Assembly (NCBI GenBank): GCA_904419285.1
Contig: CAJFQZ010000011.1
Span: 1 to 62,828, forward strand
DNA: 62,828 nt
Origin: Lachnospiraceae bacterium UBA1818
GTDB taxonomy: Bacteria; Bacillota; Clostridia; Lachnospirales; Lachnospiraceae
Reading direction: 5' to 3'
Below the pieces are notes generated by a model. The model searched no databases, was not told the DNA's origin, and saw only the letters and a program-made list of their open reading frames with translations. The position numbers were made by a program, and so were the translations under genes. Positions 6,628 through 29,705 of the stretch are shown piece by piece; position 1 is the first letter of the stretch, and each line of letters starts with the position of its first letter.

Positions 6628-6640
6628 CGTCCGTTACCTC

Positions 6641-10646: not shown

Positions 10647-10730
10647 CGTCTCGATCTCCCTTCTTCCGGCACTTCTCTCAGCCGGCTCTGTGTCTGCGGC
10701 ATTTTCTCCGCAACTTTCTGATTTACATCC

Positions 10731-10758
10731 ATTATACCCCATTGCCTGACAACTTCAA
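10731..10758 (-). promoter_or_regulatory. Promoter of the zinc-ribbon/LspA-like pair
   Basis: The minus strand reads TTGAAG, 16 bases, TATAAT, about 85 bases before the start codon. The remaining 10760-10890 stretch holds an AACCGGTT palindrome but no convincing plus-strand promoter. Confidence 0.55.
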
Positions 10759-10891
10759 CAGATTTGCTGCCGAATTTATACTTTTTTAACCGGTTCAGTA
10801 CACTGAAAATATGCGTTAGAGCCGCCCTGAACAGCACATACTTTCCGCCAGTCCCACATATATTTATCAAAAGCCTGATGTGGTGATTCAT

Positions 10892-12598
10892 ATGACTGAT
10901 CTTGAAACATGCCGGGAACATATCCTGTCCGAGGAGTACCGGGATTTCATCGGCAATCATGTCCGGACGCCTTTTTTTGACAGCATCATGAAGGATGACC
11001 TATGCGTACAGGACGCAGGATTTGACTATAAATGCTTCTACTTTCCCAAGGAGACCGTAGAGCCTGTCACCCTGTCAAAATTTTCCTACAATTCCATTCC
11101 AAAATGCTTTGCCCCGCTGAGCATGGAGACGCTGAACCAGACCGGTATACTCCCCATCCAGAACTATCCCACCCTGCAGCTGAAAGGGGAGGGCGTGCTG
11201 ATCGGTTTTCTGGACAGCGGGATTGATTATGAAAACGCAGTATTCCGCCGTCTTGACGGCTCCACTCGGATCGCCGCGATCTGGGACCAGACCGTGCAGA
11301 CGGGAACACCCCCGGAAGGGTTTTCCTACGGAAGTGAGTTTCCCCGTGAAATGATCGATGAAGCTCTCCGCTCCGACTCTCCCGGTTCCCTTGTCCCCTC
11401 TTTTGATGAAAGCGGACATGGCACCTACGCGGCCAGCCTTGCCGCCGGTTCAGCAGACCCGGAAGAGCAGTTTCTGGGCGCAGCGCCGGAGTCCGCACTT
11501 GCCGTCGTAAAGCTGAAGCAGGCAAAACAATATCTGCAGGATTATTATTTCATCCCCCGGGACACAGTATGCTATCAGGAGACTGATCTTATGCTCGGCC
11601 TGAGATATCTGAACGACCTGGCTGACCGTCTGCAGCTCCCGCTCGTCATCTGCATCACCGTCGGGACCAGCATGGGAGGACATATCGGCACTCTCCCATT
11701 TCCGTATCTGATCGAAGGCTACAGCACCAAAGCGAACCGCATCACTGTGATCGGCACGGGAAACGAGGCGGACAAACGGCACCACTATTACAACCGTATC
11801 GAAAATGAAAGAGATACAAAGACCGTAGAAGTGCGTGTAGGCGAGAATGTGACCGGATTTTTTCTTGAACTCTGGACCGAGATCCCCAATATTCTGTCCA
11901 TCTCCATGATCTCGCCCTCCGGCGAGAATACATCCCGCATCCCCTTCCGGGTCGGCGCCGGGGCTGAGATCGACTTCCTGTTCGAGCGGACCAAAGTCTC
12001 TGTGGATTACCGGCTGCTGGTGGAAAAGACCACCTCCGAACTGGTCTTTTTCCGTTTCGACGCGCCCGCTCCGGGGATCTGGAAGATTATCGTTGAACCG
12101 CTGACCGCCACGGACGGCAACTTCCATATGTGGCTGCCCCTGACCGAATTCTTAAGCGGAGAAGTCTACTTTCTGGAGTCCGATCCCTATTACACTCTGA
12201 CAAGCCCTGCCAATACCGACAGCCCCGTCATCGTCTCCTACTATGACGGAAAGACAGACGGAGTGGCCCAGGCATCGGGACGGGGATATACACGCACGCA
12301 GCGCATGAACCCGGACATCACTGCCCCCGGTATCAATGTCCGCGGAGCACTGCCCGGCGGGCGCTTCTCCTCCCGGTCCGGTTCCTGCGTCTCCGCCGCA
12401 GTGACCGCCGGCGCAGTGGCGCTCATGCTGGAATGGCTCATCTATATCCAGGAAGTCCCCGGCATCGATTCCTATCAGGTCAAGAGCCTGCTGATCCTCG
12501 GAGCGGTGCGCCCGAAGACGATGGAATACCCCAACAGAGAATGGGGCTACGGCCAGCTGAACCTGTATAACACCTTTGAGACCATGCGGCAGCTGTAA
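10892..12598 (+). CDS. Subtilisin-like (S8) protein with Ser-to-Cys change
   Basis: This protein of about 568 residues resembles the Csp-type subtilases of Clostridia. The catalytic Asp lies in IGFLDSGIDYEN (Asp108) and the His in ESGHGTYAASLAAG (His176). The motif that should read GTSxA reads SGSCVSAAVTAGAVAL, so Cys499 takes the place of the nucleophile Ser. The oxyanion Asn region also reads TVGTSMGGH instead of the usual GTNxGxH. It has no signal peptide and no N-terminal prodomain of ordinary size. It could be a thiol subtilase or a pseudoprotease, like the inactive Csp proteins that regulate spore germination. Start: GTG at 10880 or ATG at 10892, neither with a good ribosome site; I prefer the ATG by family resemblance. 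Confidence 0.88.
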   Translation: MTDLETCREHILSEEYRDFIGNHVRTPFFDSIMKDDLCVQDAGFDYKCFYFPKETVEPVTLSKFSYNSIPKCFAPLSMETLNQTGILPIQNYPTLQLKGEGVLIGFLDSGIDYENAVFRRLDGSTRIAAIWDQTVQTGTPPEGFSYGSEFPREMIDEALRSDSPGSLVPSFDESGHGTYAASLAAGSADPEEQFLGAAPESALAVVKLKQAKQYLQDYYFIPRDTVCYQETDLMLGLRYLNDLADRLQLPLVICITVGTSMGGHIGTLPFPYLIEGYSTKANRITVIGTGNEADKRHHYYNRIENERDTKTVEVRVGENVTGFFLELWTEIPNILSISMISPSGENTSRIPFRVGAGAEIDFLFERTKVSVDYRLLVEKTTSELVFFRFDAPAPGIWKIIVEPLTATDGNFHMWLPLTEFLSGEVYFLESDPYYTLTSPANTDSPVIVSYYDGKTDGVAQASGRGYTRTQRMNPDITAPGINVRGALPGGRFSSRSGSCVSAAVTAGAVALMLEWLIYIQEVPGIDSYQVKSLLILGAVRPKTMEYPNREWGYGQLNLYNTFETMRQL

Positions 12599-12608
12599 AA
12601 ATGTGCAG

Positions 12609-12672
12609 TTTGGGACACAGTAAAATGCAATTGGGGACGTAGTCAAATTCAATTTGACTACGTCCCCAATTG
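12609..12672. repeat. REP-like palindromic element, copy 2
   Basis: It has the same structure as at 6133, with the 45-bp palindrome at 12628-12672. Relative to copy 1, both arms change together from C/G to G/C next to the GGGAC core, so pairing is kept. It sits between the convergent S8 and clpX genes. Confidence 0.85.
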
Positions 12673-12678
12673 AAGTAT

Positions 12679-14148
12679 TTACCCCAGCCGTGGCACTTCC
12701 TGCCCCCGCAGCTGGATGATCGGTCCTCCCGTTCCCTCGATGTATTCGCGGGTGATCGTCACCTGGCCGATACTGTCATCCTTCGGGATCTCATACATGA
12801 TATCCAGCATGAACTCCTCGATAATGGCCCGCAGTGCCCGGGCGCCGGTATCCTTTTCCATCGCTTTCTCGGCGATCGCCTCAAGCGCTCCGTCGTCGAA
12901 GTCCAGCTTCACCTCATCCAGCGCCAGCAGCTTCTGATACTGCTTGAGGATCGCGTTCTTCGGCTCCTTCAGTATCTTTACGAGCATGTCCTTGTCCAGC
13001 CCTTTCAGGGTAAAGATGATCGGCAGACGTCCCAGAAATTCAGGGATCATACCGAACTTCCTCAGGTCCTCCACTGTCGCCTTGGACAGGATATCTTTAT
13101 CATGCTCGTACTTGTCCTTCAGCTCCGCGTTAAATCCCATAGAAGTCTTCTTCTGAAGTCTCTCCTTGATGATCTCCTCCAGATCCGGGAATGCGCCTCC
13201 GCAGATAAACAGAATATTCTTTGTATTTACAGTGGTCAGCGGAACCATCGCATTCTTGCTGTTCGCTCCTACCGGAACTTCCACTTCGCTGCCCTCCAGG
13301 AGCTTGAGCATCCCCTGCTGAACGGACTCGCCGCTCACATCCCGCTGGTTTGAATTCCTCTTCTTCGCGATCTTGTCGATCTCATCGATAAAGATAATGC
13401 CCTGCTCCGCGCGCTCCACGTCATTGTCTGCCGCTGCGAGCAGCTTGGATACCACGCTCTCAATATCGTCGCCTATGTATCCAGCTTCCGTGAGTGAAGT
13501 CGCATCCGTGATCGCCAGCGGCACATCCAGAAGCTTTGCGAGCGTCTTGACCAGATAGGTCTTGCCGCTTCCGGTCGGTCCGATCATAAGCATGTTGGAC
13601 TTCTCGATCTCAATGTCGTCCATCGTATCCGTCGCCACCCTCTTATAATGGTTATAGACCGCGACGGACATCGCCTTCTTGGCATATTCCTGTCCTACCA
13701 CATATTCGTCCAGACGCGCCTTGATCTTATGCGGCGCCGGAATATCCTTGATGTTCAGCTGATGGAATTCCTTCGGCTTCTCCTTTTTTTTCTTGATCTT
13801 CTGAGCATGTGGCTGCATATTCTCAAGATCAGACACGTTGAGGAACTGCACGCCCGGCATGTTCATCAGCCGGCTCAGGTCCACAGAACCGTTTGTCATA
13901 GCGTCAAAGCTCCGCTGCATGCAGTCCGGGCATACCGTGATATGGTTCGGCAGATCGATCATCTTCCCGGTCACACTTTCCGGCCGGTGGCAGATGAAAC
14001 AGATCTTCTCATATCCGTCATCCTGTCTGTCATCCTTCTCCTGTCCTTGAGCGGCCATCTCCTTTTTCCCGTTTCCGGCCGGATCCGTGCTGCCCTCATT
14101 CTCTTTTGTATCTTCTTCGTCTAATATGATAAAATCCTGATCTGACAT
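12679..14148 (-). CDS. clpX: ClpX-type AAA+ unfoldase
   Basis: This is the ATPase that unfolds proteins and feeds them to ClpP. It has a zinc finger of four Cys (50, 53, 73, 76), Walker A GPTGSGKT (190-197), pore loop GYIGDD, Walker B IIFIDEIDK, and the ClpP-docking tripeptide as MGF instead of the common IGF (KKTSMGFNAE). At 489 residues it is longer than the usual 410-430, owing to an acidic N-terminal tail of about 45 residues and a Lys-rich linker near 118-126. No clpP or tig lies beside it, unlike the standard locus. It may therefore be the main ClpX or a second one. A TTGTAT/TATAAT promoter lies upstream. Confidence 0.93.
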   Translation of the reverse strand: MSDQDFIILDEEDTKENEGSTDPAGNGKKEMAAQGQEKDDRQDDGYEKICFICHRPESVTGKMIDLPNHITVCPDCMQRSFDAMTNGSVDLSRLMNMPGVQFLNVSDLENMQPHAQKIKKKKEKPKEFHQLNIKDIPAPHKIKARLDEYVVGQEYAKKAMSVAVYNHYKRVATDTMDDIEIEKSNMLMIGPTGSGKTYLVKTLAKLLDVPLAITDATSLTEAGYIGDDIESVVSKLLAAADNDVERAEQGIIFIDEIDKIAKKRNSNQRDVSGESVQQGMLKLLEGSEVEVPVGANSKNAMVPLTTVNTKNILFICGGAFPDLEEIIKERLQKKTSMGFNAELKDKYEHDKDILSKATVEDLRKFGMIPEFLGRLPIIFTLKGLDKDMLVKILKEPKNAILKQYQKLLALDEVKLDFDDGALEAIAEKAMEKDTGARALRAIIEEFMLDIMYEIPKDDSIGQVTITREYIEGTGGPIIQLRGQEVPRLG

Positions 14149-14180
14149 AAATTCATCCCTTCTTCTTCGGCTTTTCCACT

Positions 14181-14209
14181 ATTATAGTACACGCGCACTG
14201 GTTATACAA
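14181..14209 (-). promoter_or_regulatory. Promoter of clpX
   Basis: The minus strand reads TTGTAT, 17 bases, TATAAT, about 30 bases before the start codon. No CIRCE or CtsR-like direct repeat is seen. Confidence 0.7.
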
Positions 14210-14321
14210 ATGAACTTTTTCTAAAGCATCCGTGCGCTTCCCTTCGATCCGCCTGATCCTTCCGCTCTTCCGCGCAGTTCCCGGTCCGCGCCTCAGTTCT
14301 CTGCTCCTGCAGCCGGAACGG

Positions 14322-18541: not shown

Positions 18542-19304
18542 TTCGTCCTCCCGATGTCACACCGGATGAATCTGCAAGAAGTCCGTAAAGCTCTTCCAGC
18601 TCCTCATCCGTCACTTTTCTGTATTCACCTTCTCTCAGGCTTCCGAGCCTGATATTCATGACCCGGACACGCACCAGATCCTTTACCTGATACCCCAGCG
18701 CCTCGCACATCCGTCGTATCTGCCGGTTCAGCCCCTGCGTCAGGATAATGGAGAATGTATACTTTCCGATCTTCTCCACCCTGCACGGGCGGGTGACCGT
18801 ATCGAGGATCGGGACGCCCGAAGACATCTGCCGGATGAATTCCGGAGTGATCTCCTGATCCACTGTCACCTTATATTCCTTCTCATGGTAATTCGCCGCG
18901 CGCATCATCTTGTTTATGATATCGCCATTGTTCGTCATGAGCAGCAGTCCTCTGGAATCCTTGTCCAGCCTCCCCACATAGGTCACGCGCACAGGATAAT
19001 TCAGGAAACGCACGATACTGTTCCTCTCCCGCCGCTCCTCTGTACAGACGATCCCTCTTGGCTTATTCACCGCGAGAACGATCATCTCATCCTGTTTCGA
19101 GACGACCTTCCTGCCCACTTTCACCGTCTGTCCGGGTGTAACGCGCATTCCGGTCTGCGCGCGCACTCCATCCACGGTCACTTTTCCACTTTCAATGAGG
19201 CGGTCGGCCTCCCGCCTGGAGCAGACCCCCGCCTCACTCAGATACTTATTCAGCCTTACCGGCTCCTTCTTCTGTAAAAATTCTTCTCTGATCCGATTAC
19301 TCAC
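18531..19304 (-). CDS. rluF: 23S rRNA pseudouridine synthase RluF family
   Basis: It makes pseudouridine in 23S rRNA (U2604 in E. coli). An N-terminal S4 RNA-binding domain (RLNKYLSEAGVCSRREADRL) is followed by the catalytic domain with the Asp in VGRLDKDSRGLLLMT. RluF-specific stretches also appear (HEKEYKVTV, GLNRQIRRMCEALGY). The start is GTG, overlapping the last codons of the DHHW gene by eight bases, with a GGAG about nine bases before. It lies inside the O-acylation/ligA run, so expression is tied to those genes. Confidence 0.9.
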   Translation of the reverse strand: MSNRIREEFLQKKEPVRLNKYLSEAGVCSRREADRLIESGKVTVDGVRAQTGMRVTPGQTVKVGRKVVSKQDEMIVLAVNKPRGIVCTEERRERNSIVRFLNYPVRVTYVGRLDKDSRGLLLMTNNGDIINKMMRAANYHEKEYKVTVDQEITPEFIRQMSSGVPILDTVTRPCRVEKIGKYTFSIILTQGLNRQIRRMCEALGYQVKDLVRVRVMNIRLGSLREGEYRKVTDEELEELYGLLADSSGVTSGGRNGR

Positions 19305-20454
19305 CTGTAAACACTCCGCTTATACTGTTGTCTGTAAAAAAACTGTTTCCGCTGTAAAGGAACAGGGCGTCAGTGATCCTGTAGGAATCCATGATATCCT
19401 CAATCGTCCCGCTGTAATATCGCGGATCGACCACCACGATCTCCCTGTAGTACGGCGTCAGGAAAGGGATAAAGCAGTTGGCAAAGGAATCCTTCACCAC
19501 AAGCAGACGCTTCCGGCTTGTCGACACGGTCCTGATATCAAGCACCGAAGTATTTCCTCCCAGATAGACTCCGTACTGATCCTTTGTCTCCAGCTTGGAA
19601 GAATCATAGAGCGATGTCGTCCGCTTTGACGCATCCACATAGTTGACGATCACATCGTCGTCTCCCTCCCGCGGGACATAGATGTCGATCGTCTCCTTCT
19701 CACCGAGTTCCACACCGCTCTCTGAGGCAAGCACGCCGTTAAAACTGTCCGACACAGTGTACGAAATATATTTGTCCGACACATCCTCATTGATCCCCAG
19801 CGTCTGAGTGGCCTCCTGGAATGTGTAGAACGCTCCCAGCGCCGTCCAGTGATGATCCGTCAGATAATATAGCTTCTCCCGCTTATGCTTATTCAATACC
19901 GAAACCGCGTCGACCCATTTAACGGAATCCCCCAGTGTCTGCTCCGCCATGCTGATCATCTGCTTCTGATCCTCCACAGAAGCCAGCGCCGGAAGCCTGT
20001 CGTTTAAAATACACGCCGCGTCCGGCACAAGGATCATCGTCACCGGGATCTCTTTGTATGTCTCCGCGAAATTTTTGATCGCGTCCATATTTTCTGAGAG
20101 ATGTTCCTGATCCGGGACCTGGATATCCTGAAGGAGCTGCCCGTCCTTCCCGATATAGATCCCGTTTTCCATCCTGCTCCCACCGATCCGGTCGACAGCA
20201 ACCTTCAGCCTGTGCCAGAAATCACGCCCTGCGAACTGGTCGCTTAAATACTCCTCATACTGTTCCATAAAGTCTCCGCTCGCAAGGGCGGACAGCGTAA
20301 ACTTGGGCCTGGAGGCCAGCATGCGGTTCTCTTCCTCAGACATCTCTCTGTCGGGCACCAGCAGATTGACCAGCATCACACCGAAAAGGCACAGTATGAA
20401 TATTCCGCCCACAAGACGCTCAATGCGTCTCTTACTTTTCTTCCTGTTATCCAT
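19297..20454 (-). CDS. DHHW protein, AlgX/J-like O-acyltransferase partner
   Basis: This protein of about 385 residues has one N-terminal membrane anchor (GGIFILCLFGVMLVNLLV) and an extracellular SGNH-like domain. The naming motif YLTDHHWTALGAFY is present, with the Asp-His that forms part of the catalytic site in the AlgJ/AlgX family. Such proteins take acyl groups handed over by MBOAT proteins and place them on surface polymers. The start at MDNRKK is preferred, with AGGTGAG just before it; a GTG three codons earlier is possible. It lies ten bases after the MBOAT stop. Confidence 0.87.
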   Translation of the reverse strand: MDNRKKSKRRIERLVGGIFILCLFGVMLVNLLVPDREMSEEENRMLASRPKFTLSALASGDFMEQYEEYLSDQFAGRDFWHRLKVAVDRIGGSRMENGIYIGKDGQLLQDIQVPDQEHLSENMDAIKNFAETYKEIPVTMILVPDAACILNDRLPALASVEDQKQMISMAEQTLGDSVKWVDAVSVLNKHKREKLYYLTDHHWTALGAFYTFQEATQTLGINEDVSDKYISYTVSDSFNGVLASESGVELGEKETIDIYVPREGDDDVIVNYVDASKRTTSLYDSSKLETKDQYGVYLGGNTSVLDIRTVSTSRKRLLVVKDSFANCFIPFLTPYYREIVVVDPRYYSGTIEDIMDSYRITDALFLYSGNSFFTDNSISGVFTGE

Positions 20455-20463
20455 TCTTCTCAC

Positions 20464-21873
20464 CTAGAATCTAAAATACAAAAACGGGTTAAACGTATCC
20501 GTGACAAGAAATGCAACGGATATGAAGAACATGCCTGTGTAGATCACCGCCGCGGCAGCCATCCTCGGGCGTCCGTCAGCAAATATGCCGATCACACGGT
20601 TGATCAGTGCATATCCCACACGGGTCGATCCAAGCACTGCCAGCAGATACAGCAGCCAGTGCGTCAGAAGGATGAAGCAGGCGCCGGAATCTGCAAGCCC
20701 GGCTCCTCCGCCGAACATCGCCGCGAGATAACGGAGGGCGTAACCGATGCTGGGACTGAAGAAGAACACCCAGCCGATCATCACCAGGACAAGGGAATAA
20801 ATATGCCTCACCGCCCTGGGCGCTTCATCGAGAGACGCTCCCCACACATATTTCTCCAGCACGATGAGCACGCCGTAATAAATTCCCCATGCGATAAAGT
20901 TCCACGCCGCCCCATGCCACATTCCGGTCAGCGTCCACACGATCATGAGGTTGATGATATTCCTGACTGCAGAGCAGCGGTTGCCGCCCAGCGGTATGTA
21001 CACATACTCCCTGAACCAGGTGCTCAGTGAGATATGCCATCTCCTCCAGAATTCCGTGATACTCTTGGAGATATACGGATAATCAAAATTCTTCCTGAAT
21101 TCAAACCCGAACATCTTGCCCAGTCCGACCGCCATATCGGAATATCCGCTGAAATCAAAATAGATCTGAAATGCATAGGAGATACAGCCCAGCCATGCCA
21201 TCAGCACAGATAGGTTGCCTGCGGACATGGATGAGATCTGTTCAAAGATCTCCCCCGCCGTGTTGGCCAGGATGACTTTCTTTGCCAGTCCCCGGATAAA
21301 GAACATGGCGCCCTGCCCCAGCCTTGCCGCCGAGATCTTCCGGCTCACGAGCTGCTTTTCAATATCGATATATCTGACGATGGGTCCCGCGATCAGCTGT
21401 GGGAACATGCTGATATAGAGCGCGAAGTACAAAATATTTTTCTGCGGCTTAACCTTTTTCCAGTAGATGTCCAGAACATAGGAAAGGCTCTGGAACGTAT
21501 AGAAAGAGATTCCCACAGGAAGCGGCAGTTCTCTGTAGGGGATCTCCACCGGAAGTATGCTGTTGAGCATGTCCAGCAGAAAACCGTAGTACTTGAAAAA
21601 CATCAGAATCAGCACATTGACGACGACGGCAAAAAGAATGCTCCTCTTCGCCTTCACGGGGTCATCTGATTTTTCCTCGATATCCTGTCCGCAGAAATAA
21701 TTCAGAATGATGGAGAGGAGCATAAGCACGATATAGACCGGCTCCCCCCACGCATAGAACAGAATACTGGCGATAAGAAGTATGATATTCTTCGCCTTTT
21801 CTGGAACGATATAATATACTGCCAGAACAATCGGCAGAAATAGAAACAAAAATGTAATACTGCTGAATACCAT
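20464..21873 (-). CDS. MBOAT family O-acyltransferase (AlgI/DltB-like)
   Basis: This membrane protein of 469 residues has about ten helices. It moves acyl groups, probably acetyl, from the cytoplasmic donor across the membrane to a surface polymer. The catalytic His320 is in LTGMWHGAAWNF and the second conserved His280 in EFWRRWHISLSTWFR. The DFSGYSDMAVG motif of AlgI is also present. The start at MVFSSITF follows GGGGAGAGG. It sits between DUF4358 and the DHHW partner, so together with the SGNH protein it forms a complete O-acylation module. The acceptor glycan is unknown. Confidence 0.92.
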   Translation of the reverse strand: MVFSSITFLFLFLPIVLAVYYIVPEKAKNIILLIASILFYAWGEPVYIVLMLLSIILNYFCGQDIEEKSDDPVKAKRSILFAVVVNVLILMFFKYYGFLLDMLNSILPVEIPYRELPLPVGISFYTFQSLSYVLDIYWKKVKPQKNILYFALYISMFPQLIAGPIVRYIDIEKQLVSRKISAARLGQGAMFFIRGLAKKVILANTAGEIFEQISSMSAGNLSVLMAWLGCISYAFQIYFDFSGYSDMAVGLGKMFGFEFRKNFDYPYISKSITEFWRRWHISLSTWFREYVYIPLGGNRCSAVRNIINLMIVWTLTGMWHGAAWNFIAWGIYYGVLIVLEKYVWGASLDEAPRAVRHIYSLVLVMIGWVFFFSPSIGYALRYLAAMFGGGAGLADSGACFILLTHWLLYLLAVLGSTRVGYALINRVIGIFADGRPRMAAAAVIYTGMFFISVAFLVTDTFNPFLYFRF

Positions 21874-21895
21874 CCCTTGATTTCCTCTCCCCTGT

Positions 21896-22393
21896 CTACA
21901 GGCTGCTCTCAAACACAGCCCTGTACTCTTCCGCATCAGATGCGACAGCAAAGAAAATATATCTTCCTCTCACACTCTGCTGCGCATCCTCGAGCAGCTT
22001 CACCTGCTCCGGCGCATATCCTTCGAACGCATTGATCCTTGAATCGATCCGCTCATTGACCGCATCGGTGACTTCCTGCACCTGCTTGTCGCTGGACACC
22101 CGGATCAGAAGGACCTCCTCAGCTGACATGCTTGACTCGGAGGCATAGTACATCACCCCCGCATAGTCCGCGCTGTTCAGCCCGAAGTTTCTCTTCAGCA
22201 TCTGAGAATCCATCTCTTTCAGGCCGGAGTCCTTCAGAGCGCTGCTCACCGCTGCCTCGACCTCCTCAAAAGGCCTGCTGCTTCCGCTCGCATAGGCCAT
22301 TAGGACTGCAATATATACGAGAACAGCCGCAAATACAACATATTTCATGATCTGAGGTACTATCGATCTCCTCTTGTACGCTGTCTCTGTCAT
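21896..22393 (-). CDS. DUF4358 membrane-anchored protein
   Basis: This 165-residue protein has one N-terminal membrane helix (KYVVFAAVLVYIAVLMAYASG) and an outside domain. Its features match DUF4358 as I know it: LKRNFGLNSADYAGVMYY, SAEEVLLIRV and a long helix ending in the phrase EGYAPEQVKLLEDAQ. DUF4358 proteins are often found next to MBOAT/DHHW genes in Clostridia, but no biochemical role is known to me. Its ATG overlaps the SGNH stop (ATGA, 22390-22393), so it is translationally coupled. A role as an accessory subunit of the acylation complex is inference. Confidence 0.83.
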   Translation of the reverse strand: MTETAYKRRSIVPQIMKYVVFAAVLVYIAVLMAYASGSSRPFEEVEAAVSSALKDSGLKEMDSQMLKRNFGLNSADYAGVMYYASESSMSAEEVLLIRVSSDKQVQEVTDAVNERIDSRINAFEGYAPEQVKLLEDAQQSVRGRYIFFAVASDAEEYRAVFESSL

Positions 22394-23145
22394 AATGCTG
22401 CCACCTCCGCCATGCGTTCTGCCCAGATCGGATAGAACTCTGCCTTGAAATGCACGCCGTCCTCCTCATAATACTGGTCTTCTACAAGTTCTGTATTGTC
22501 AATAAATCCAACCTGCATCTCATCGCACATTCCCTTGAGCGCGGTATTATACTCCGAGATCTGTGCAAGTTCAGGCTCTTTCTTCACCGCACTGTCTGTC
22601 ACCGGGAAGATGGAATTCACATAGATATGTGCATTCGGGACTTCCTCACGGAGCTGATCTACAAGTGTCTCATACTCTTCCAGAAACTGGTCTGTATCCC
22701 CGGCTGTGGAAATAACGTCATTCATTCCATACGCCAGGAAAATGACCTGCGGATCCAGTTCCTTTACCTGCTGCACCTGTTCGTCAAGCTCGTTCAGATG
22801 TACGCCGATCTTGGACACCACGCTGGATGCATTGAGCACGTCATACTCGGAAAATCCTTCTGTGATAGAATCTCCCATTACAACGGAACTGGCAAACTTC
22901 TCCTTGCAGCTGCGGTCGGTGTCATCCCCTCCGTCCTGCTGTTCAAGCTGACTGATCTTCTGTTCGATAGTAGCGATATCATCTGATTCTGCCGCCTTGA
23001 TATACTCCAGCCCCTGCTCTGTGTCTGCCCGCGGGGCTGTCAGTCTCCGGATTCCATGGACCACAAGGATCACCAGCAGCAGAAGGACAAGCGCACAGGC
23101 CCCGATCACCAAAAGTCTTTTTTTCTTTCTGCTAATTCTTCTCAT
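22390..23145 (-). CDS. Membrane-anchored SGNH/GDSL hydrolase
   Basis: This 251-residue protein has an N-terminal anchor (LLVIGACALVLLLLVILVV) and an extracellular SGNH esterase domain. The family blocks are present: VVMGDSITEG with the nucleophile Ser93, GMND at 140-143, and Asp229-Gly-Val-His232 near the end. It probably transfers or removes acyl groups on surface glycans. It is the first gene of the run, behind a TTGACT/TATTAT promoter, and leads straight into DUF4358, MBOAT and DHHW. The SGNH and DHHW proteins may act on different positions or steps. Confidence 0.87.
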   Translation of the reverse strand: MRRISRKKKRLLVIGACALVLLLLVILVVHGIRRLTAPRADTEQGLEYIKAAESDDIATIEQKISQLEQQDGGDDTDRSCKEKFASSVVMGDSITEGFSEYDVLNASSVVSKIGVHLNELDEQVQQVKELDPQVIFLAYGMNDVISTAGDTDQFLEEYETLVDQLREEVPNAHIYVNSIFPVTDSAVKKEPELAQISEYNTALKGMCDEMQVGFIDNTELVEDQYYEEDGVHFKAEFYPIWAERMAEVAAL

Positions 23146-23258: not shown

Positions 23259-23469
23259 TGGCGGCGTCAGTCTCCCGTTCTGAAGCTCCGGCAGTTTCCC
23301 CTGCCTTTCCCTCAGAATACAGAGCCGTTCGCGAATTCTTGAAAGGGCTGCTGTTCACAGTAACTTGAACGCGCGGTATTAAAAGATTTTCCTTAAAAAT
23401 ATTTCTTGTATTTTTAATCCATGGCCGTGGTTTTTTATGATATGATGGTAAGGCATGGAGGATATCAGA

Positions 23470-23952
23470 ATGATCGCATTGACAATGACAGGAATCAAAG
23501 ACTTTATGTCACAGCTTCTTCTCAAGGACACCTTCGACAGCTTCTGCTTCATCGAAGGCGAGATCGTGACGTTCAATACATTTACGATCGACGGATTTAT
23601 ACACAAGGACTTCTTTGACACAGACGCGGAACTGCCGGAGTATTCCTACTGGAAAAATATAAGGGAGCACTGCTTTGCACTCATACGTGGAAAGCGCACT
23701 CCCTTAAGTTTCCGTTTCGTCTTCAGTCTCTCACCTAAAAATATTGCCCGCCTCATCGAACAGAACGGACTCTCCCTGGATCCGGGCCAGGTGCAGGGGC
23801 TCTATCTGAACATCCGTTATGACGGCAGCTCCCTCGCCTGTGTGACGGGAAGCTCCTTTAAGACATTCACCATGGACAGGACACTGGAGCATGCGTGGGA
23901 CGAGATGGTGAAAAAATTTTTCCTGCAGAAGGGGATCGCATTTGAGAACTGA
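23470..23952 (+). CDS. DUF5721 family protein
   Basis: This 160-residue soluble protein has no signal peptide. It begins MIALTMTGIKDFMSQLLLKD and contains the phrases FNTFTIDGFIHKDFF and RFVFSLSP, which I associate with DUF5721 of Lachnospiraceae. No enzymatic motif is seen. The start has GGAGG nine bases upstream, and an earlier in-frame ATG at 23455 lies ahead of that site. It is a single gene, convergent with the CotH operon, whose last stop lies 25 bases after its own. There is no obvious terminator in the short gap. Confidence 0.8.
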   Translation: MIALTMTGIKDFMSQLLLKDTFDSFCFIEGEIVTFNTFTIDGFIHKDFFDTDAELPEYSYWKNIREHCFALIRGKRTPLSFRFVFSLSPKNIARLIEQNGLSLDPGQVQGLYLNIRYDGSSLACVTGSSFKTFTMDRTLEHAWDEMVKKFFLQKGIAFEN

Positions 23953-23977: not shown

Positions 23978-25375
23978 TCAGTCCCGCAGATCTGCAATTT
24001 CTCCCATGTCCGGCAGCCAGACGTCCGAGGCATCCACACGGCTCTGCTCATCTTCCTGCTGTCCCCGGATCGTGGAGGGGATCTCTCCGGAAAGCTGTCC
24101 CCTGACACTCTCCGCCCGCAGCAGGCAGAAGTCTGTGATCGTCCGGACAGCAGTAAGATAATCTTCATAGGAGCAGAAAGCGGTCGGATCTTTCTCCACA
24201 TAAGGCGCGATCATTTTCGTCGTCTCCGCCACCCTTCTCTCAAACAGCCCGCTCTCAAAATATTCCCCGATAAACTGATCAAAATATTCATGATACCTGG
24301 CAAAATACCTGTCGTTCTTCATAAGATTGTGATAAAGCGGACGGTTCCTCATGATTTCCCCTGCCGCCGGAGTATTGATCGGATAATTCACATAGAGCTC
24401 TGCATCATTGACCGGATCCGGCATCCCGAGAGAATAGGTCGCAAAGGCCAGATTGTAGTCCCACGGAAGGATGCTTAATATTCCGTCCTCTTCATAGAGG
24501 AAATAATTATGTCCGGTCCGGCCCAGATAGCTGTCCAGATTCACTGTAAACACCTGTACCGTAAAATATCTGAGCACTTCATCCACGTTCACTGCCTTCT
24601 CTAATCCCTCTCCTTCAGCAAGTATCTTCAGCGCGCTGATCAGTCTTTCCTGATCCTCGCTGTCGATATCAAACTTCGCATTTCTGAAAATATTATCATA
24701 ATCCGCGGGATCGTCAGAAGTATATTTCAGAGCCACATCGCTGTTCTCCGCCTCCAGCGAGCGGTAGTCCGGCTTGTACAGCTGCCCGTGATCTGCGCCG
24801 TAATTCCTGCGTGCGAACGACTCCTCAGGTTCCTCCACTGCCAGGAAGAGCCCCCAGTCCTCTCCGTTCACAGTGACCCACACATAACTGGTAAGAGGCG
24901 ACGGAACTCCCATATATTCCATCATGTCATAGGCAAGATAATTCTTGAGGTAACTGTTGTCCTGATAGGAGGAATCCAGGGACAGCTTATCCAGCCCGTA
25001 ATATGTACTGCCGTCCTGAAAGTGGTCAAATTCCAGCTTCAGGCTGTACCTCTTCAGCCCGAACTCTTGCACGAGCCGCAGAGAATTGTTCCCTTTCGCG
25101 CGCAGCCCGACAGAGGAAAACACCTCCCCATCAATTTCCACGTCGCATTCGGAATATTCTTCTTCCGAAGCATTCTCAAGGAATCCTTCCCAGTCCTCGA
25201 TCCTGATATCCACTGTGTGCACCCGGCCGTCGTCAAAAATCCGCGAGGCATACTCCGGATCCTCATAGGACGACCGGATCCCGAGCTTCTCGCCGTTCAT
25301 GAACCCGGCTGTCAGAACACATGCAAGCAGGATCACTGCAATGCAGATTTTATCTATGTGTCTGTGCTTCAGCAT
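23978..25375 (-). CDS. CotH-type extracellular protein kinase-like protein
   Basis: This 465-residue protein has an N-terminal signal anchor (ICIAVILLACVLTAGF), so the rest lies outside the cell. It carries the CotH kinase core: GLRAKGNNSLR, then KLSLDSSYQDNSYLKNYLAY, ending with the catalytic Asp in VFTVNLDSYLGRTGHNYFLY and the metal-binding Asp in LPWDYNLAF. CotH of Bacillus phosphorylates Ser-rich spore-coat repeat proteins, and the fold is related to Fam20 secreted kinases. It is the last gene of the operon lipoprotein, VTC, DUF4956, CotH. The first gene encodes a repeat protein that could be its substrate (inference). Confidence 0.88.
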   Translation of the reverse strand: MLKHRHIDKICIAVILLACVLTAGFMNGEKLGIRSSYEDPEYASRIFDDGRVHTVDIRIEDWEGFLENASEEEYSECDVEIDGEVFSSVGLRAKGNNSLRLVQEFGLKRYSLKLEFDHFQDGSTYYGLDKLSLDSSYQDNSYLKNYLAYDMMEYMGVPSPLTSYVWVTVNGEDWGLFLAVEEPEESFARRNYGADHGQLYKPDYRSLEAENSDVALKYTSDDPADYDNIFRNAKFDIDSEDQERLISALKILAEGEGLEKAVNVDEVLRYFTVQVFTVNLDSYLGRTGHNYFLYEEDGILSILPWDYNLAFATYSLGMPDPVNDAELYVNYPINTPAAGEIMRNRPLYHNLMKNDRYFARYHEYFDQFIGEYFESGLFERRVAETTKMIAPYVEKDPTAFCSYEDYLTAVRTITDFCLLRAESVRGQLSGEIPSTIRGQQEDEQSRVDASDVWLPDMGEIADLRD

Positions 25376-25406: not shown

Positions 25407-26078
25407 CTACCCCATATAATCTCCATTATATGAAACAAGCACCGTGTGCGTCACGCCTTCCATCTCAGACAGTGCGTTAACAAATCCGGATTCGCCCTCC
25501 GGAAAGCGGACCTCATAATTCAGCTCGATGCACCCCGGCGATACACTCTTGCTCTTCAGTGAGAGCGCCTTCACCTGCATTTTGACATATTCCCTGACCG
25601 CCTTTTCCTGTTCCTCAGTTCCACAGTGGACTACAAGAATATACGGACGCTCCACATTCTTCCTTCCCGAGAATACCAGGAGCACCAGACCGATAAAGAG
25701 GCTTCCGAACACCGCCAGAGGGAGAAACCCTGCCGCGAGAACGATTCCCGCTGCTATACTCCAGAAAAGGAACGCAATGTCCATCGGTTCTTTGATCGCA
25801 GTCCTGAATCGGACGATGGACAGGGCGCCGACCATACCGAGAGAGAGAACGATATTGCTGGTCACCGCCAGGATCAGAAGCGTCGTGATCAGTGTGAGCG
25901 CCACCAGTGTCGCTCCGAACGCCGCCGAATACATCAGCCCGCAGTAGCTCTTTTTATATATAAAAAAAATAAACAATCCCAGCGCGAAAGCGAGGATGAG
26001 CGCCAGCGCCATATCCAGCACTGAGATCGCGCTTACATTTTCAAGAAAACTGGATTTAAATATATCCTGAAACGTCAT
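25407..26078 (-). CDS. DUF4956 membrane protein
   Basis: This 223-residue protein has four or five membrane helices in the first 140 residues, with the family signature LSLGMVGALSIVRFRTAIKE. A soluble ferredoxin-like C-terminal domain of about 80 residues follows (RPYILVVHCGTEEQEKAVRE). DUF4956 is commonly found next to VTC-domain polymerases and CotH kinases in bacteria. Its role is unproven; an export channel or activator for the polymerase would fit. The start follows AGGTGG. It begins 78 bases after the VTC stop and ends 31 bases before CotH. Confidence 0.88.
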   Translation of the reverse strand: MTFQDIFKSSFLENVSAISVLDMALALILAFALGLFIFFIYKKSYCGLMYSAAFGATLVALTLITTLLILAVTSNIVLSLGMVGALSIVRFRTAIKEPMDIAFLFWSIAAGIVLAAGFLPLAVFGSLFIGLVLLVFSGRKNVERPYILVVHCGTEEQEKAVREYVKMQVKALSLKSKSVSPGCIELNYEVRFPEGESGFVNALSEMEGVTHTVLVSYNGDYMG

Positions 26079-26156: not shown

Positions 26157-26846
26157 TTATTCAAATCTTCTGCACACCGCATATTTGGAATATGCCCCTG
26201 TTTTCCGATCCGGAGTCTGTACCGCCATTCTGACGATATCCGGCAGGAACGCGTCGTACTTTACCTCAAGTACCGTGGTTTCCGCCGCAGCCATCCAGTT
26301 TCCGTGGTTCAGAAAGTCCGTGCTGCGAAGGCCTGTCCTGAGCCCCCGGTCCAGTGTCACCCTCACATTCCCCGGTGAATAGACAAACGCTTCCCGCTCA
26401 TAGCTTACGATCGTCCGGGGACTTAAAAGCTCCCCTTTTATCTTACAGTACAGTTCGATCAAAAGAGGATCTTCATTGTGCAGAAGAAAATCCGTCCTGC
26501 CATCGAGGAGCTGTTCTGCCTGTTCCACGGTAAGGCGGGCGCTGCGCTTCGCGCACAGCCCGCCCTGTTTTATCTTTTTCTCAAGACGGAGAAAAGAAGG
26601 ATCATTCCCATAATACCTCAGCCTGAATTTTTCCCGTCTGCTCACCCCGGCGATCTTCTGGTTCAGCGCTTTGTCGTCCGGGGTATCAAAATAGAGACTG
26701 TTCACCCTGTATACTCCTGTCGGACCGGCATGACTGTCATGCTCGAACAGCCTGCCGAGTCTTTCTGCAAGGATCCTGTCTTCAGCCTGTGTGATCAGCT
26801 GCTTCAGCTCATGCCGGAAAGAGACCGGCTTCCTCTCAATCATCAT
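26157..26846 (-). CDS. VTC-domain polyphosphate polymerase-like protein
   Basis: This protein of about 230 residues consists of just the VTC tunnel domain (CYTH-like fold) that in yeast Vtc4 makes polyphosphate from ATP. The basic and acidic residues expected in the tunnel are visible in order: RHELKQLI, YRVNSLYFDTP, KFRLRYYG, LRLEKKIKQGG, SYEREAFVY, VRVTLDRGL and the metal-binding LEVKYDAFLPDIVR. I start it at the ATG pair 26843-26846, which overlaps the stop of the upstream lipoprotein gene; the frame is open for 21 more codons inside that gene. Translational coupling is therefore likely. The true product has not been shown. Confidence 0.86.
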   Translation of the reverse strand: MMIERKPVSFRHELKQLITQAEDRILAERLGRLFEHDSHAGPTGVYRVNSLYFDTPDDKALNQKIAGVSRREKFRLRYYGNDPSFLRLEKKIKQGGLCAKRSARLTVEQAEQLLDGRTDFLLHNEDPLLIELYCKIKGELLSPRTIVSYEREAFVYSPGNVRVTLDRGLRTGLRSTDFLNHGNWMAAAETTVLEVKYDAFLPDIVRMAVQTPDRKTGAYSKYAVCRRFE

Positions 26847-27771
26847 AGTCTGTGCCGCCGTCGTCGTAGTCTGTACTGCCTTCGTCATAGTCTGTGTCCC
26901 CGTCGTCATAATCCGTACTTCCTCCGCTGTAAGCCGGCGCTGCAGGAGCCGCAGGAGCTGGAGCTGCAGGGGCGGGCGTGCTGTAATCTGTCACTCCATC
27001 ATTGTACGGACCGTAATCTGTGTCGTCATAATCCGTCACTCCGTCATTATTCGGACCGTAATCTGTGTCGTCATAGTCCGTCACGCCATCATTGTTCGGA
27101 CCGTAGTCTGTATCGTCATAGTCTGTCACACCATCATTATTCGGACCGTAGTCTGTATCGTCATAGTCTGTCACTCCGTCATTATTCGGGCCGTAATCTG
27201 TGTCATTGTAGTCTGTCACTCCGTCGTTGTCCGGGCCGTAATCTGTATCCCCGTAATTCGTCCATCCATAGTTACTCTCGCCGTCCACCGCTACCGATGT
27301 ATTCAGATTTTTGCTTCCTGTGTATTCCTGGATCCCCGCCACGATATTGCTGAGGAAGTTTTCACTCGGAAGGATAGAGCCTGCCTCGATCTCAAGTGTG
27401 ATCTGTCTGCCCTTCCCCTCTGTTTCCTCCACGAGATATCCCGCGCCATCGATCTTTGCGACCAGATCGCAGATTACCTGTCGGCACTCTTTTCCTTCAT
27501 ACTCTGTAAAATCAGCCGCGATCGTTTCGCCGTCGTCATTGCGTCCTTCGACCATCGTGACCAGCCCCTGCTCATCATAGGTTACAGCGATTTCCGGATT
27601 TACTCTGACGGAGATCACACCGCCTTCCGCCTGCTCCTGAACCTGGAGCGTCCCCTGTGCCGGGTTCATATTCCCGTCTGCGCTGCGGCTTCCGCATCCT
27701 GCCATCACTCCTGTGAAAAGAGAAAGTGTTAATACTGCCGCCAATGTTTTGATCAAATTTTTCTTCGTCAT
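26836..27771 (-). CDS. Repeat lipoprotein with an RsgI-like domain
   Basis: This 311-residue secreted lipoprotein has its lipobox at GVMAGC (Cys26). Residues 50-165 resemble the outer domain of the neighbouring RsgI: VRVNPEIAVTYDEQG and RNDDG here match MQINPDIEMTLSRSG and INDDG there, and both keep the Asn-Pro pair (Asn58-Pro59). Residues 175-264 are six copies of a 15-residue unit close to DTDYGPNNDGVTDYD. An Ala/Pro linker and an acidic tail with more TDYDD units follow. It is the first gene of the VTC-DUF4956-CotH operon, with a SigI-like promoter. Possible jobs are an acidic cation-binding surface protein, a CotH substrate, or a modulator of RsgI; all three are inference. Confidence 0.88.
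   Translation of the reverse strand: MTKKNLIKTLAAVLTLSLFTGVMAGCGSRSADGNMNPAQGTLQVQEQAEGGVISVRVNPEIAVTYDEQGLVTMVEGRNDDGETIAADFTEYEGKECRQVICDLVAKIDGAGYLVEETEGKGRQITLEIEAGSILPSENFLSNIVAGIQEYTGSKNLNTSVAVDGESNYGWTNYGDTDYGPDNDGVTDYNDTDYGPNNDGVTDYDDTDYGPNNDGVTDYDDTDYGPNNDGVTDYDDTDYGPNNDGVTDYDDTDYGPYNDGVTDYSTPAPAAPAPAAPAAPAYSGGSTDYDDGDTDYDEGSTDYDDGGTDYDD
26980..27249 (-). repeat. Six in-frame 45-bp tandem repeats
   Basis: Six 45-bp units encode the 15-residue repeat DTDYGPNNDGVTDYD with few changes. They are in frame inside the lipoprotein gene, so copy number could vary without breaking the reading frame. Confidence 0.9.
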
Positions 27772-27821: not shown

Positions 27822-27857
27822 GTAGGATACGGACGAAGATCGTGGAAAACGGGGTCG
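27822..27857 (-). promoter_or_regulatory. SigI-type promoter of the lipoprotein-VTC-CotH operon
   Basis: The minus strand reads CGACCCCG, exactly 18 bases, CGTATCCTAC. The boxes and spacing are the same as in the divergent sigI promoter (one base differs in the second box). ACCCC at -35 and CGWA at -10 is the known SigI style. The start codon is about 45 bases downstream of the expected start site. Confidence 0.8.
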
Positions 27858-28040
27858 GCACATTATTTTTTTAATTTTTATTTCGTATTGAAATCTGAGA
27901 GTCTGTTTTCTATTATAAGGAAAGGACTCTGCCACCTTTCTTTGAGTCGGTCTGATTTTACCTGTATTTCACCTGTATTTTACGTATTTCTAATATGTTT
28001 TTAACATTTTCCCAATATACTGATAAAAATTTTTCACTCA

Positions 28041-28076
28041 CGACCCCGATAATACGATAACTCTTTCGTATTCTAC
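28041..28076 (+). promoter_or_regulatory. SigI-type promoter of sigI-rsgI (autoregulation)
   Basis: CGACCCCG, 18 bases, CGTATTCTAC. It mirrors the minus-strand promoter at 27822. The ribosome site AGGAGG follows at 28081, so the 5' leader would be very short. The 180 bases between the two promoters are AT-rich and show no other clear site. Confidence 0.8.
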
Positions 28077-28095
28077 TATCAGGAGGATAATGTTT

Positions 28096-28818
28096 ATGAG
28101 CGGTGGGCATGAACTGGTCGAACAGGTATATGCGGCGAAGACTGATTCTGATGCCGCGGACGCCCTGATTCGTCAATACATGGGATTTATTCGCGCAGAA
28201 GCAGCCAAGTTTCTTCACAGGGCGCCTGTAGAAGGCCAGGACGAAGAATTCAGCATCGTGCTTCTTGCATTCTACGAAGCTATACTCGGCTATGAAAAAC
28301 ACCGGGGCGCCTTTCTCGCCTATGCCTCGCGCGGAATCCGCAGCCGTCTGATCGATCATTACCGCCGGGAAAAAAAGCATTCGAAAGTCGTCTCTCTTCA
28401 CGAACCGATACAGGACGGTGAGGAAGATACTCTGAAGATCGATCATCTGGAAGATCCGAAAAATCCGATCGAGACGTCGCACCACAAAAGTGCGGCAAAG
28501 GAAGAGATCATGGAATTTGAGCTTTGTCTTAAGGGGTTCGGCATTTCCTTTCCCGATGTGGCGGACAACTGTCCCCGGCAGGAACGGACGCTCAGAGCAT
28601 GTCAGAAAGTTCTCTTAGAAGCGCGCAGACACCCTGAATACCTGGACGAACTTATCCAGACAAAAAAGCTTCCGATCACAGCGCTTTCAAAGCTTTCCGG
28701 CGTTGACAAAAAGACGCTTGAGCGCCATCGAAAATATCTGATCGCCGTCCTGCTCGCATTTACAAACGGATATGAGATCATACGCGGTCATCTTTATCAT
28801 TTATCCAAAAATTCATGA
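28096..28818 (+). CDS. sigI: RNA polymerase sigma factor SigI
   Basis: This 240-residue sigma factor belongs to the SigI group. Region 2 is seen as DEEFSIVLLAFYEAILGYEKHRGAFLAYASRGIRSRLIDHYRREK, read here in its key residues D-E-E-F, Y-E-K and R-x-R-L-I-D. The SigI C-terminal DNA-binding part is LPITALSKLSGVDKKTLERH. I start at the second ATG (28096), nine bases after AGGAGG; the ATG at 28090 is too close. Its stop overlaps the next frame (ATGA). SigI is normally held by the membrane protein RsgI and released on a surface signal. It should read the two CGACCCCG promoters here. Confidence 0.93.
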   Translation: MSGGHELVEQVYAAKTDSDAADALIRQYMGFIRAEAAKFLHRAPVEGQDEEFSIVLLAFYEAILGYEKHRGAFLAYASRGIRSRLIDHYRREKKHSKVVSLHEPIQDGEEDTLKIDHLEDPKNPIETSHHKSAAKEEIMEFELCLKGFGISFPDVADNCPRQERTLRACQKVLLEARRHPEYLDELIQTKKLPITALSKLSGVDKKTLERHRKYLIAVLLAFTNGYEIIRGHLYHLSKNS

Positions 28819-28853
28819 ACATCGCAGACTTATACATAGAAACGGAGCCGAAT

Positions 28854-29705
28854 ATGAAAGAGAATACGACGTATTTAGTAATGGAAGTGCATAGCGCCTA
28901 TGCCGTCCTCCTGGACAATGAAGGCCGTTTCATCAAAGCTGCCAATGTCGGCTATCAGATTGGCGAAGTTGTTGAAAAGGTCTTTCCATTGAAATATCCT
29001 GAGGACCGAAAGAAACAGATGAGCCGGGTGATCCGCTTTGCAGCCGGCCTGGCAGCCTGCCTCTGCGTCGCAGTCTTCGGTGTGTATGAATACCAGTATT
29101 TCTTCATCCCTTACGGCACGCTCCAGATGCAGATCAATCCGGATATTGAGATGACCCTGAGCCGTTCCGGCCGGGTGCTTGACCTCGACGGCATAAATGA
29201 CGACGGAAAAGTTCTGATCGACGACTATGAATACGGCGGGAAAAACCAGTATACCGTCATCGACGAGCTTACTGACCGCGCGATAGAACTTGGTTTTCTG
29301 ACTGACGGCGGTCAGGTTGCCCTCCTCGCCGATTCTAAGAACAGCGCCTGGGCAGAGACCCTTCAGAAGGACCTTGTAGATGAGCTGAACGAACATTTAA
29401 AGCAGTATGATCTTACGATCAGCGTCAATATCGGAACGATAGACGACGGCACCGACAGGCTGGAAGAGTCTCAGAGCATCACGATTCCGATTCCAGCTCC
29501 CGAGCCCGAACCGACCGCTGAACCAGAACCGACGGCTCCTGCCGAAAATGATTCCGGCTACGGCGACGACATGTACGATGATGATATCGGCGGCTCCTAC
29601 AGCGGCGGAAGCAACAGTTATGCGGATGATGACGACTGGGATGACGATCAGGACGACGACTGGGACGATAATGACGACGATGACGGAGACGATGATGACG
29701 ACTGA
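28854..29705 (+). CDS. rsgI: RsgI-type membrane anti-sigma factor
   Basis: This protein of about 283 residues has three parts. An N-terminal RsgI_N domain binds SigI (YLVMEVHSAYAVLLDNEGRF, GYQIGEVVEK). One membrane helix follows (RFAAGLAACLCVAVFGVY). The outer domain has the Asn95-Pro96 pair in QMQINPDIEM, the site where Clostridium thermocellum RsgI proteins cut themselves. Instead of a carbohydrate-binding sensor, the tail is PEPEPT followed by a stretch that is almost all Asp. An upstream ATG at 28815 overlaps sigI but lacks a ribosome site; 28854 follows CGGAG. The signal sensed is unknown; the acidic tail suggests cations. Confidence 0.88.
   Translation: MKENTTYLVMEVHSAYAVLLDNEGRFIKAANVGYQIGEVVEKVFPLKYPEDRKKQMSRVIRFAAGLAACLCVAVFGVYEYQYFFIPYGTLQMQINPDIEMTLSRSGRVLDLDGINDDGKVLIDDYEYGGKNQYTVIDELTDRAIELGFLTDGGQVALLADSKNSAWAETLQKDLVDELNEHLKQYDLTISVNIGTIDDGTDRLEESQSITIPIPAPEPEPTAEPEPTAPAENDSGYGDDMYDDDIGGSYSGGSNSYADDDDWDDDQDDDWDDNDDDDGDDDDD

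Follow-up and report, generated by a model that had tools for sequence, protein, structure and literature searches.

Two predicted SigI-type promoters join a sigI-rsgI pair to an operon for an RsgI-like lipoprotein and a CotH-family kinase in Lachnospiraceae bacterium UBA1818

The window, meaning the whole 62,828-nucleotide stretch of DNA that was analysed, belongs to a genome of 2.77 Mb that is 94% complete. Near its middle, two transcription units diverge from one intergenic gap, and the following features are found, listed by position:

23978..25375, minus strand: CotH-family kinase, predicted to be extracytoplasmic (Pfam CotH, E 1.3e-64)
25407..26078, minus strand: DUF4956 membrane protein with an ACT-like C-terminal domain (Pfam DUF4956, E 8e-9)
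26157..26846, minus strand, likely start 26846: VTC-domain protein, putative polyphosphate polymerase (Pfam VTC, E 1.2e-34)
26836..27771, minus strand: lipoprotein with an RsgI_M/SEAL domain, an Asn-Pro (residues 58-59) and a tail of [ST]xY repeats (about 26839-27279)
27822..27857, minus strand: predicted SigI-type promoter of the lipoprotein operon, CGACCCCG (-35 region, then a T-rich stretch)-N18-CGTATCCTAC (-10 region)
28041..28076, plus strand: predicted SigI-type promoter of sigI-rsgI, CGACCCCG (-35 region, then an A-rich stretch)-N18-CGTATTCTAC (-10 region)
28096..28818, plus strand: sigI, SigI-family alternative sigma factor (ten NCBIfam SigI models; PDB SigI6, 8i24)
28815..29705, plus strand: rsgI, anti-sigma factor (RsgI_N, a hydrophobic stretch read as a transmembrane helix, RsgI_M/SEAL and an acidic tail)

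The sigma factor is matched by ten NCBIfam SigI models (E 1.9e-47 to 3.6e-28), all within their curated cut-offs, and a profile built from 15 relatives retrieves SigI6 from the PDB (8i24, E 1.7e-25), with SigI6 and SigI1 aligning to profile residues 17-232, which cover both domains. Its most likely start is 28096 rather than 28090; the AGGAGG at 28081-28086 is too near 28090, and Met3 is invariant in the relatives. The next gene, rsgI, adjoins sigI, and its product matches Pfam RsgI_M (E 1.5e-21, 77.8 bits) as well as, just below the cut-off, RsgI_N (E 9.5e-5, 22.6 bits against 25). RsgI_M is the periplasmic domain of RsgI proteins, which we take to be the one named SEAL. Within it, an Asn-Pro at residues 108-109 (29136-29141) recurs in all 36 RsgI proteins that are not cut off before it. 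In alignments with five RsgI chains of the PDB (E 3e-4 to 0.26), this Pro falls on the residue at which each chain begins, as would be expected if those proteins were cut there, and RsgI of C. thermocellum is described as having a self-cleaving periplasmic domain (PMC12203970).

The first gene on the other side of the gap had been labelled a lipoprotein. The label is borne out by an N-terminus that reads as a lipoprotein signal with the lipobox VMAGC, but the first reading missed the RsgI_M domain (Pfam E 8.3e-12) and the kinship with RsgI that comes with it. Pfam finds no anti-sigma domain in the protein, and the anti-sigma and transmembrane part of an RsgI is missing, RsgI_M alone being present. 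A structural model built from 30 sequences (pLDDT 84.5) has RsgI domains at ranks 1-5 of its Foldseek matches, led by the SEAL domain of B. subtilis RsgI (8t9n, E 4.9e-6) and followed by C. thermocellum; phmmer with the single lipoprotein sequence against the PDB gave nothing useful and did not retrieve RsgI. The Asn-Pro is found in 34/34 lipoproteins, between model strands 10-15 and 19-24. In the model, the domain thereby shows the periplasmic fold of RsgI with an Asn-Pro between strands 1 and 2, as expected of a SEAL domain, and on the sequence comparison the lipoprotein is paralogous to RsgI's outer half and not an RsgI itself. An invariant Cys occurs in 30/30 aligned lipoprotein SEAL domains (residue 96 in the window, about 27484-27486) and is not conserved in RsgI. 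A PepSY domain was also found by Pfam in the lipoproteins of loci L098 and L209, and other Oscillospiraceae lipoproteins look similar in sequence by eye.

To our knowledge, few substrates are known for the bacterial family of extracytoplasmic CotH kinases. The kinase of the window aligns with the CotH structure 5jd9 (E 1.9e-16) and retains the PWDY and N-x-D...HNY motifs with candidate Asp residues, motifs to which D228 and D251 of B. subtilis CotH presumably correspond. D228 and D251 are the catalytic residues of the B. subtilis kinase, which phosphorylates the serine repeats of CotB (PMC7821199). Given that activity, the repeat tail of the lipoprotein is a sensible candidate substrate for the CotH encoded beside it. 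The tails of the lipoprotein and of RsgI both consist of acidic repeats with Ser or Thr two residues before Tyr, an arrangement found for 95% of the 542 tyrosines in the lipoprotein tails (33 proteins) and for 84% of the 195 in the RsgI tails (36 proteins), against an overall Ser plus Thr background of about 18%, although the repeats inflate the tail percentages. Across loci, 10-26 [ST]xY motifs are present in the lipoprotein tail at 34/34 loci with CotH and zero at 3/3 loci lacking it (L092, L108 and L211), these being raw locus counts that ignore kinship and include just three loci without CotH. They cover 37 of 44 loci, after removal of L095, L102, L103 and L110 (no readable lipoprotein), L094 and L107 (cut tails) and L088 (contig ending before CotH); CotH in L086, L109 and L212 was called by tblastn, the motif search having missed it. 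In place of [ST]xY, the tails of L092 and L108 bear Asp/Trp-rich repeats, and a search of these two genomes, whose completeness is not stated, gave no CotH match genome-wide. The genome of L211 encodes one CotH elsewhere, without the motif and beside other VTC/DUF4956 relatives, and L209 has CotH, yet no [ST]xY in its RsgI tail.

The same properties could make the lipoprotein a structural or adhesion protein of the cell surface that is modified by CotH and uses its SEAL domain as an anchor, with no feedback on RsgI, a reading to which somewhat less than even odds are given here. Long repeat tails would suit such a role, spores contain repeats of the CotB/CotG type of which the serine-rich ones of CotB are CotH substrates (PMC7821199), and in the Pel locus of Streptococcus intermedius, mutation of the CotH gene or of the DUF4956-like gene reduces aggregation (PMC12345266). 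It accounts less readily for the fact that RsgI shares the SEAL fold and has a comparable tail motif. Furthermore, the lipoprotein and RsgI tails resemble each other more closely when both come from one genome (3-mer cosine 0.334) than when they come from different genomes of a family (0.246), a difference reached in 0/5000 permutations within families (30 genomes, with L094, L097, L107 and L109 left out and closer kinship inside families ignored), and this likeness suggests a common partner.

The two remaining genes of the operon are more variable. A profile of 16 VTC sequences matches yeast Vtc4 (3g3q, E 5.9e-4), where a single sequence gives no match, and the motifs RLRYYG, EKK and YEREAF align with RLRWYG, ERK and YNRTAF of Vtc4, motifs which we take to hold its active-site residues. 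The model of the DUF4956 protein is of low confidence (pLDDT 65), with the C-terminal domain of MgtC as its top fold match (E 1.4e-3). Both VTC and DUF4956 are absent in L113 and L209, where the lipoprotein and CotH stay, and no VTC, DUF4956 or CotH was found at the loci L092, L108 and L211. A putative polyphosphate polymerase and an extracellular kinase had been named as the predicted target of SigI; genes for both putative proteins do lie in the operon, but its most constant member is the lipoprotein and the trio is sometimes absent, which weakens the case for the putative polymerase as the main target. Thirteen other DUF4956 loci of the genus (3 to 3.6 kb, 12 of them with a VTC neighbour) gave no match to the strict promoter box, SigI, RsgI or the lipoprotein. 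A link to Pel exopolysaccharide loci was also considered and set aside, no contiguous Pel genes being found: PelG, the sole Pel gene searched, has no match in 14/15 sigI-positive genomes of the genus, the window's included, and lies on another contig in the one genome that has it. The VTC-DUF4956-CotH trio thus seems to stand outside Pel loci here. A separate GDSL-DUF4358-MBOAT-DHHW/AlgX group at 19297-23145 looks like a polysaccharide acetylation cassette. It was rejected as a part of the operon, since a plus-strand DUF5721 gene (23455-23952) intervenes, and GDSL and MBOAT matches lie beside 4/39 loci only (L078, L085, L111 and L112), a count in which other loci may be cut short.

Both boxes in the gap have the general form CGACCCCG-N18-CGTATNCTAC. 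Re-reading confirmed both as described and in place, 18 bases exactly separating CGACCCCG from CGTA, and CGACCCCG-N16-20-CGTA matches twice in the window with 0 matches expected from 100 shuffles. The spacers had been called unrelated, and their sequences do differ, but the four bases that follow CCCC plus one are A-rich on the sigI side and T-rich on the lipoprotein side. Attribution to the SigI promoter style (ACCCC with CGWA) agrees with published promoters in both elements and in the 24-base distance, which, counted from ACCCC to CGTA, is that of C. thermocellum sigI3 (PMC4711584). Sigma-70 promoters in the gap were rejected, the best consensus matches reaching just 9-10/12.

In the window's genome, CGACCCCG-N16-20-CGTA has four matches (two at this locus and two with other spacers) against two for the reversed control, and GACCCC-N18-20-CGTANNCTA has two, both at this locus. 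The weak form ACCCC-N18-20-CGTA is not enriched there (15 against 34 in the reversed control), and the signal therefore resides in the longer motif. The genome-wide scan proposed in the first-pass annotation found the strict pattern at this locus only. Across 58 genomes of the genus the strict pattern matches 26 times and its reversed control 12 times, and 23 of the 26 matches fall in the orthologous intergenic region; among the 37 genus genomes searched for this SigI, strict sites occur in 10/10 with it and 0/27 without it. Close orthologues of the DUF4956 protein (84-100%) are found in exactly 15/58 genus genomes, and these are the 15 in which the strict-site locus contains sigI and the lipoprotein gene. 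With one mismatch allowed, 26/27 matches in these 15 locus-bearing genomes lie in this region (control 6). A spacer one base longer gives seven matches against 12 for the control, two of them exact and representing true sigI sites with a longer spacer and five carrying a mismatch. In 666 kb of collected loci, 58/60 strict matches are located before sigI or between rsgI/sigI and the lipoprotein gene, including one at a contig end where the lipoprotein gene is cut off.

Two promoters at one locus could still belong to a larger regulon whose degenerate promoters escape strict patterns, which is possible but on the whole unlikely. The SigI promoters of C. thermocellum are diverse (PMC4711584) and those elsewhere can be degenerate, and a strict off-locus site recurs in genomes G063 and G079, with a third in G006. 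The one-mismatch matches, nearly all of which fall in this region, and the lack of genome-wide enrichment of the weak form count against it. The recurring site has the form GACCCC-N18-20-CGTATACTA (L039 1533 and L046 1533, both on the minus strand); G063 and G079 are without a DUF4956 match, none of the window's genes surround the site, and a gene for a multi-transmembrane protein lies near it in L039.

The scan of named relatives comprises 39 loci, from which records very close to the window's genome may be missing. The closest SigI (93%) is that of Candidatus Mediterraneibacter vanvlietii, and other carriers are Sellimonas, Merdimonas, Claveliimonas, Flavonifractor, Pseudoflavonifractor, Oscillibacter and Lacrimispora, many of them probably from poultry gut, judging by some isolate names. 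One group of loci is divergent like the window. The remaining loci with enough sequence have sigI-rsgI-lipoprotein on one strand, usually with VTC-DUF4956-CotH next after the lipoprotein gene, and carry the second box in the gap between rsgI and the lipoprotein gene, where it is degenerate in L099, L100, L105, L108 and L113. Among the testable loci (L076-L113), CCCC-N18-20-CGTA is present upstream of sigI in 36/37 and upstream of the lipoprotein gene in 33/33, compared with 38/4000 random 115-base and 102/4000 random 360-base windows, respectively, which were drawn from the same loci and may include true sites. The strict GACCCC form is found in 28/37 sigI and 26/33 lipoprotein regions and so misses 9/37 and 7/33. 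As the search pattern was derived from these same loci, the counts measure conservation and not independent discovery. The lipoprotein motif filter left out L097, which has Arg before Val-Asn-Pro, and such counts used at most 33/34 lipoproteins; the lipoprotein-side site and the Asn-Pro are both present in L097.

In a SigI tree of 50 rows, all 19 divergent loci form one clade (100/98) among colinear ones, which fits a single rearrangement with both promoters retained, some inner branches being weak. L095, L102, L103 and L110 were labelled colinear in this tree, their contigs ending before the lipoprotein gene, and L211 is absent from it. The window's subfamily is set apart (100/99) from six other SigI factors of the class used as outgroup; the SigI factors of C. 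thermocellum are not placed by name. That the second site persists with the lipoprotein gene in colinear loci argues for two SigI promoters and not for a shared operator. Each of the two genes keeps its site in several families and under both gene arrangements, so that the proposal of one SigI-type promoter for sigI-rsgI and another for lipoprotein-VTC-DUF4956-CotH is strongly supported by sequence conservation.

The two promoters differ in flavour. Among the named loci, the four bases after CCCC plus one are A-rich in 37/37 sigI sites and T-rich in 53/53 lipoprotein sites, the latter count taking in tandem sites and single sites matched in shifted registers, and nearly all sites have CT after CGTANN. 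The distance from CCCC to CGTA is 19 bases in 30/37 sigI and 48/53 lipoprotein sites, where the pattern allowed 18-20. In further lineages the sigI sites seen are T-rich or mixed, so that the A-rich/T-rich split characterises the named loci. An A-tract is read by SigI through the minor groove (PMC10575876), so that either strand could serve.

It is improbable that the boxes are operators of another DNA-binding regulator instead of -35 and -10 elements of SigI. Two inverted copies, as in the window, could bind a dimer, but the colinear loci carry direct copies about 1.8 kb apart, on which ground an inverted-repeat operator was rejected. The prevailing 19-base distance at both kinds of site, the agreement of ACCCC, CGWA and the 24-base distance with published SigI promoters, and the co-occurrence of sites with sigI over the genus genomes (10/10 against 0/27) likewise favour promoters. 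Chance repetition or recent duplication of one promoter, the latter already discounted in the first-pass annotation, can practically be dismissed, with zero matches expected by shuffling, distinct A-rich and T-rich versions at every named site and a pair that is present across several families.

Beyond the named relatives, 291 genomes of the class were surveyed, and a SigI match at E <= 1e-20 was obtained in 68 of them. Apart from the window's own, six genomes carry the window's SigI subfamily (E <= 1e-75; next best E 4e-45). A SEAL lipoprotein is encoded in 5/6 of these loci, each with a site in the gap between rsgI and the lipoprotein gene, whereas CotH is found in 4/6 and VTC and DUF4956 in 3/6; a site precedes sigI in 5/6, one of them with CGAA (L210). 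No sigI site was found in L207 by the pattern used. Upstream of its lipoprotein gene (6406-6732), L207 carries a tandem array of four SigI-type boxes, spaced at about 105-115 bases, and tandem pairs also occur in L092, L098, L099 and L107. L210, the subfamily locus with no lipoprotein match, encodes a 1376-aa protein with lamin-tail and metallophosphatase domains directly downstream of rsgI (10145-14272). The sigI frame of L211 (8246-8971), a locus without CotH, has an in-frame stop, possibly reflecting a decaying system or a sequencing error. More distantly related SigI loci, of which 14 were covered over 5 to 18 kb each, gave no lipoprotein, VTC, DUF4956 or CotH match.

Several elements of the locus have precedents. 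C. thermocellum has sigI-rsgI pairs as found here (SigI1-SigI8/RsgI1-RsgI9), with promoters that likewise combine a CCC-rich or A-tract -35 with a CGWA -10, and its SigI6 recognises its own promoter (PMC4711584). The Bacillus SigI consensus, ACCCCC--AA-N15-CGAA, is also similar (PMC4711584), but its -10 is CGAA, where nearly all sites here have CGTA. The SigI factors of C. thermocellum control cellulosome genes, and SigI6, when placed in B. subtilis as host, switches on the cseP promoter, cseP being a CotH-dockerin gene (PMC4711584); here, in contrast, two predicted strict-pattern promoters would serve sigI-rsgI and an operon of an RsgI-like lipoprotein with VTC-DUF4956-CotH. The gene list of C. 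perfringens NELoc-2 comes close, with SigI (spelled SgiI), a 348-aa cell-wall protein, VTC, a 'tubulin/FtsZ' protein and CotH (PMC2879425). The 'tubulin/FtsZ' protein is probably DUF4956. Unlike here, VTC and 'tubulin' are duplicated around a resolvase in NELoc-2 and a glycosyltransferase gene comes next; the available text of that source mentions no promoters or SEAL domain, and the comparison is one of gene lists (PMC2879425). Gram-positive Pel clusters similarly hold CotH, PPP and DUF4956 accessory genes side by side (PMC7112168; PMC12345266), but the near-absence of PelG distinguishes the genomes studied here. The authors of PMC12345266 report that they found no such trio outside Pel loci, and a gene of the S. 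intermedius Pel locus shows a weak resemblance to MgtC, as DUF4956 does here; this gene is taken to be a DUF4956 relative.

The first-pass annotation knew of no description of the predicted target of this SigI. In the open-licence literature, outside which the key SEAL-domain papers lie, neither the RsgI-like lipoprotein nor this regulon was found described, but the activation of cseP by SigI6 and the NELoc-2 gene list were known earlier. As far as the literature searched shows, the SEAL lipoprotein, the small regulon and the association of tail and kinase are new, while the SigI promoter style, the activation of a CotH-dockerin gene by SigI6 and the C. perfringens sigI-VTC-CotH gene list are not.

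Taken together, the comparisons point to a SigI/RsgI unit of envelope signalling that is self-contained, its small regulon comprising two promoters by the patterns used and its output including an RsgI-like lipoprotein, a reading given a probability of about 0.78. Support is strongest for the pair of SigI promoters, for the conservation of their linkage and for the kinship of the lipoprotein with RsgI. By analogy with known RsgI proteins, RsgI would keep SigI at the membrane until its outer SEAL domain yields, whereupon intramembrane proteolysis would set SigI free. Free SigI would then fire its own promoter and the same-class promoter of the lipoprotein operon, which would produce a lipoprotein copying the outer half of RsgI (SEAL domain and acidic [ST]-x-Y tail), usually together with CotH and VTC-DUF4956. 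CotH may in turn phosphorylate the [ST]xY repeats in the lipoprotein tail, and those in the RsgI tail where they occur. Phosphorylated tails might build a charged surface polymer whose state is reported by the matching tail of RsgI, and the output would thereby feed back on the sensor. A more speculative version, for which the odds are long, holds the lipoprotein to be a self-cleaving, lipid-anchored double of RsgI, whose freed SEAL half re-caps cut RsgI by strand exchange and so shuts SigI off, while CotH sets the trigger by phosphorylating the [ST]-x-Y tails of both proteins. If this were true, the SEAL half would be released by force or exchange, and the locus would encode a force-sensing sigma switch with a kinase-tuned decoy from its own regulon.

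SigI factors are best known from cellulosomes and from Bacillus stress; the envelope-signalling unit proposed here belongs to a SigI clade of gut Clostridia in which the most constant output resembles the system's own sensor. It would offer a compact, testable system for studying how SEAL-domain signalling is tuned and would place the VTC-DUF4956-CotH trio in a setting other than Pel loci, and it provides [ST]-x-Y as a concrete candidate substrate motif for CotH kinases.
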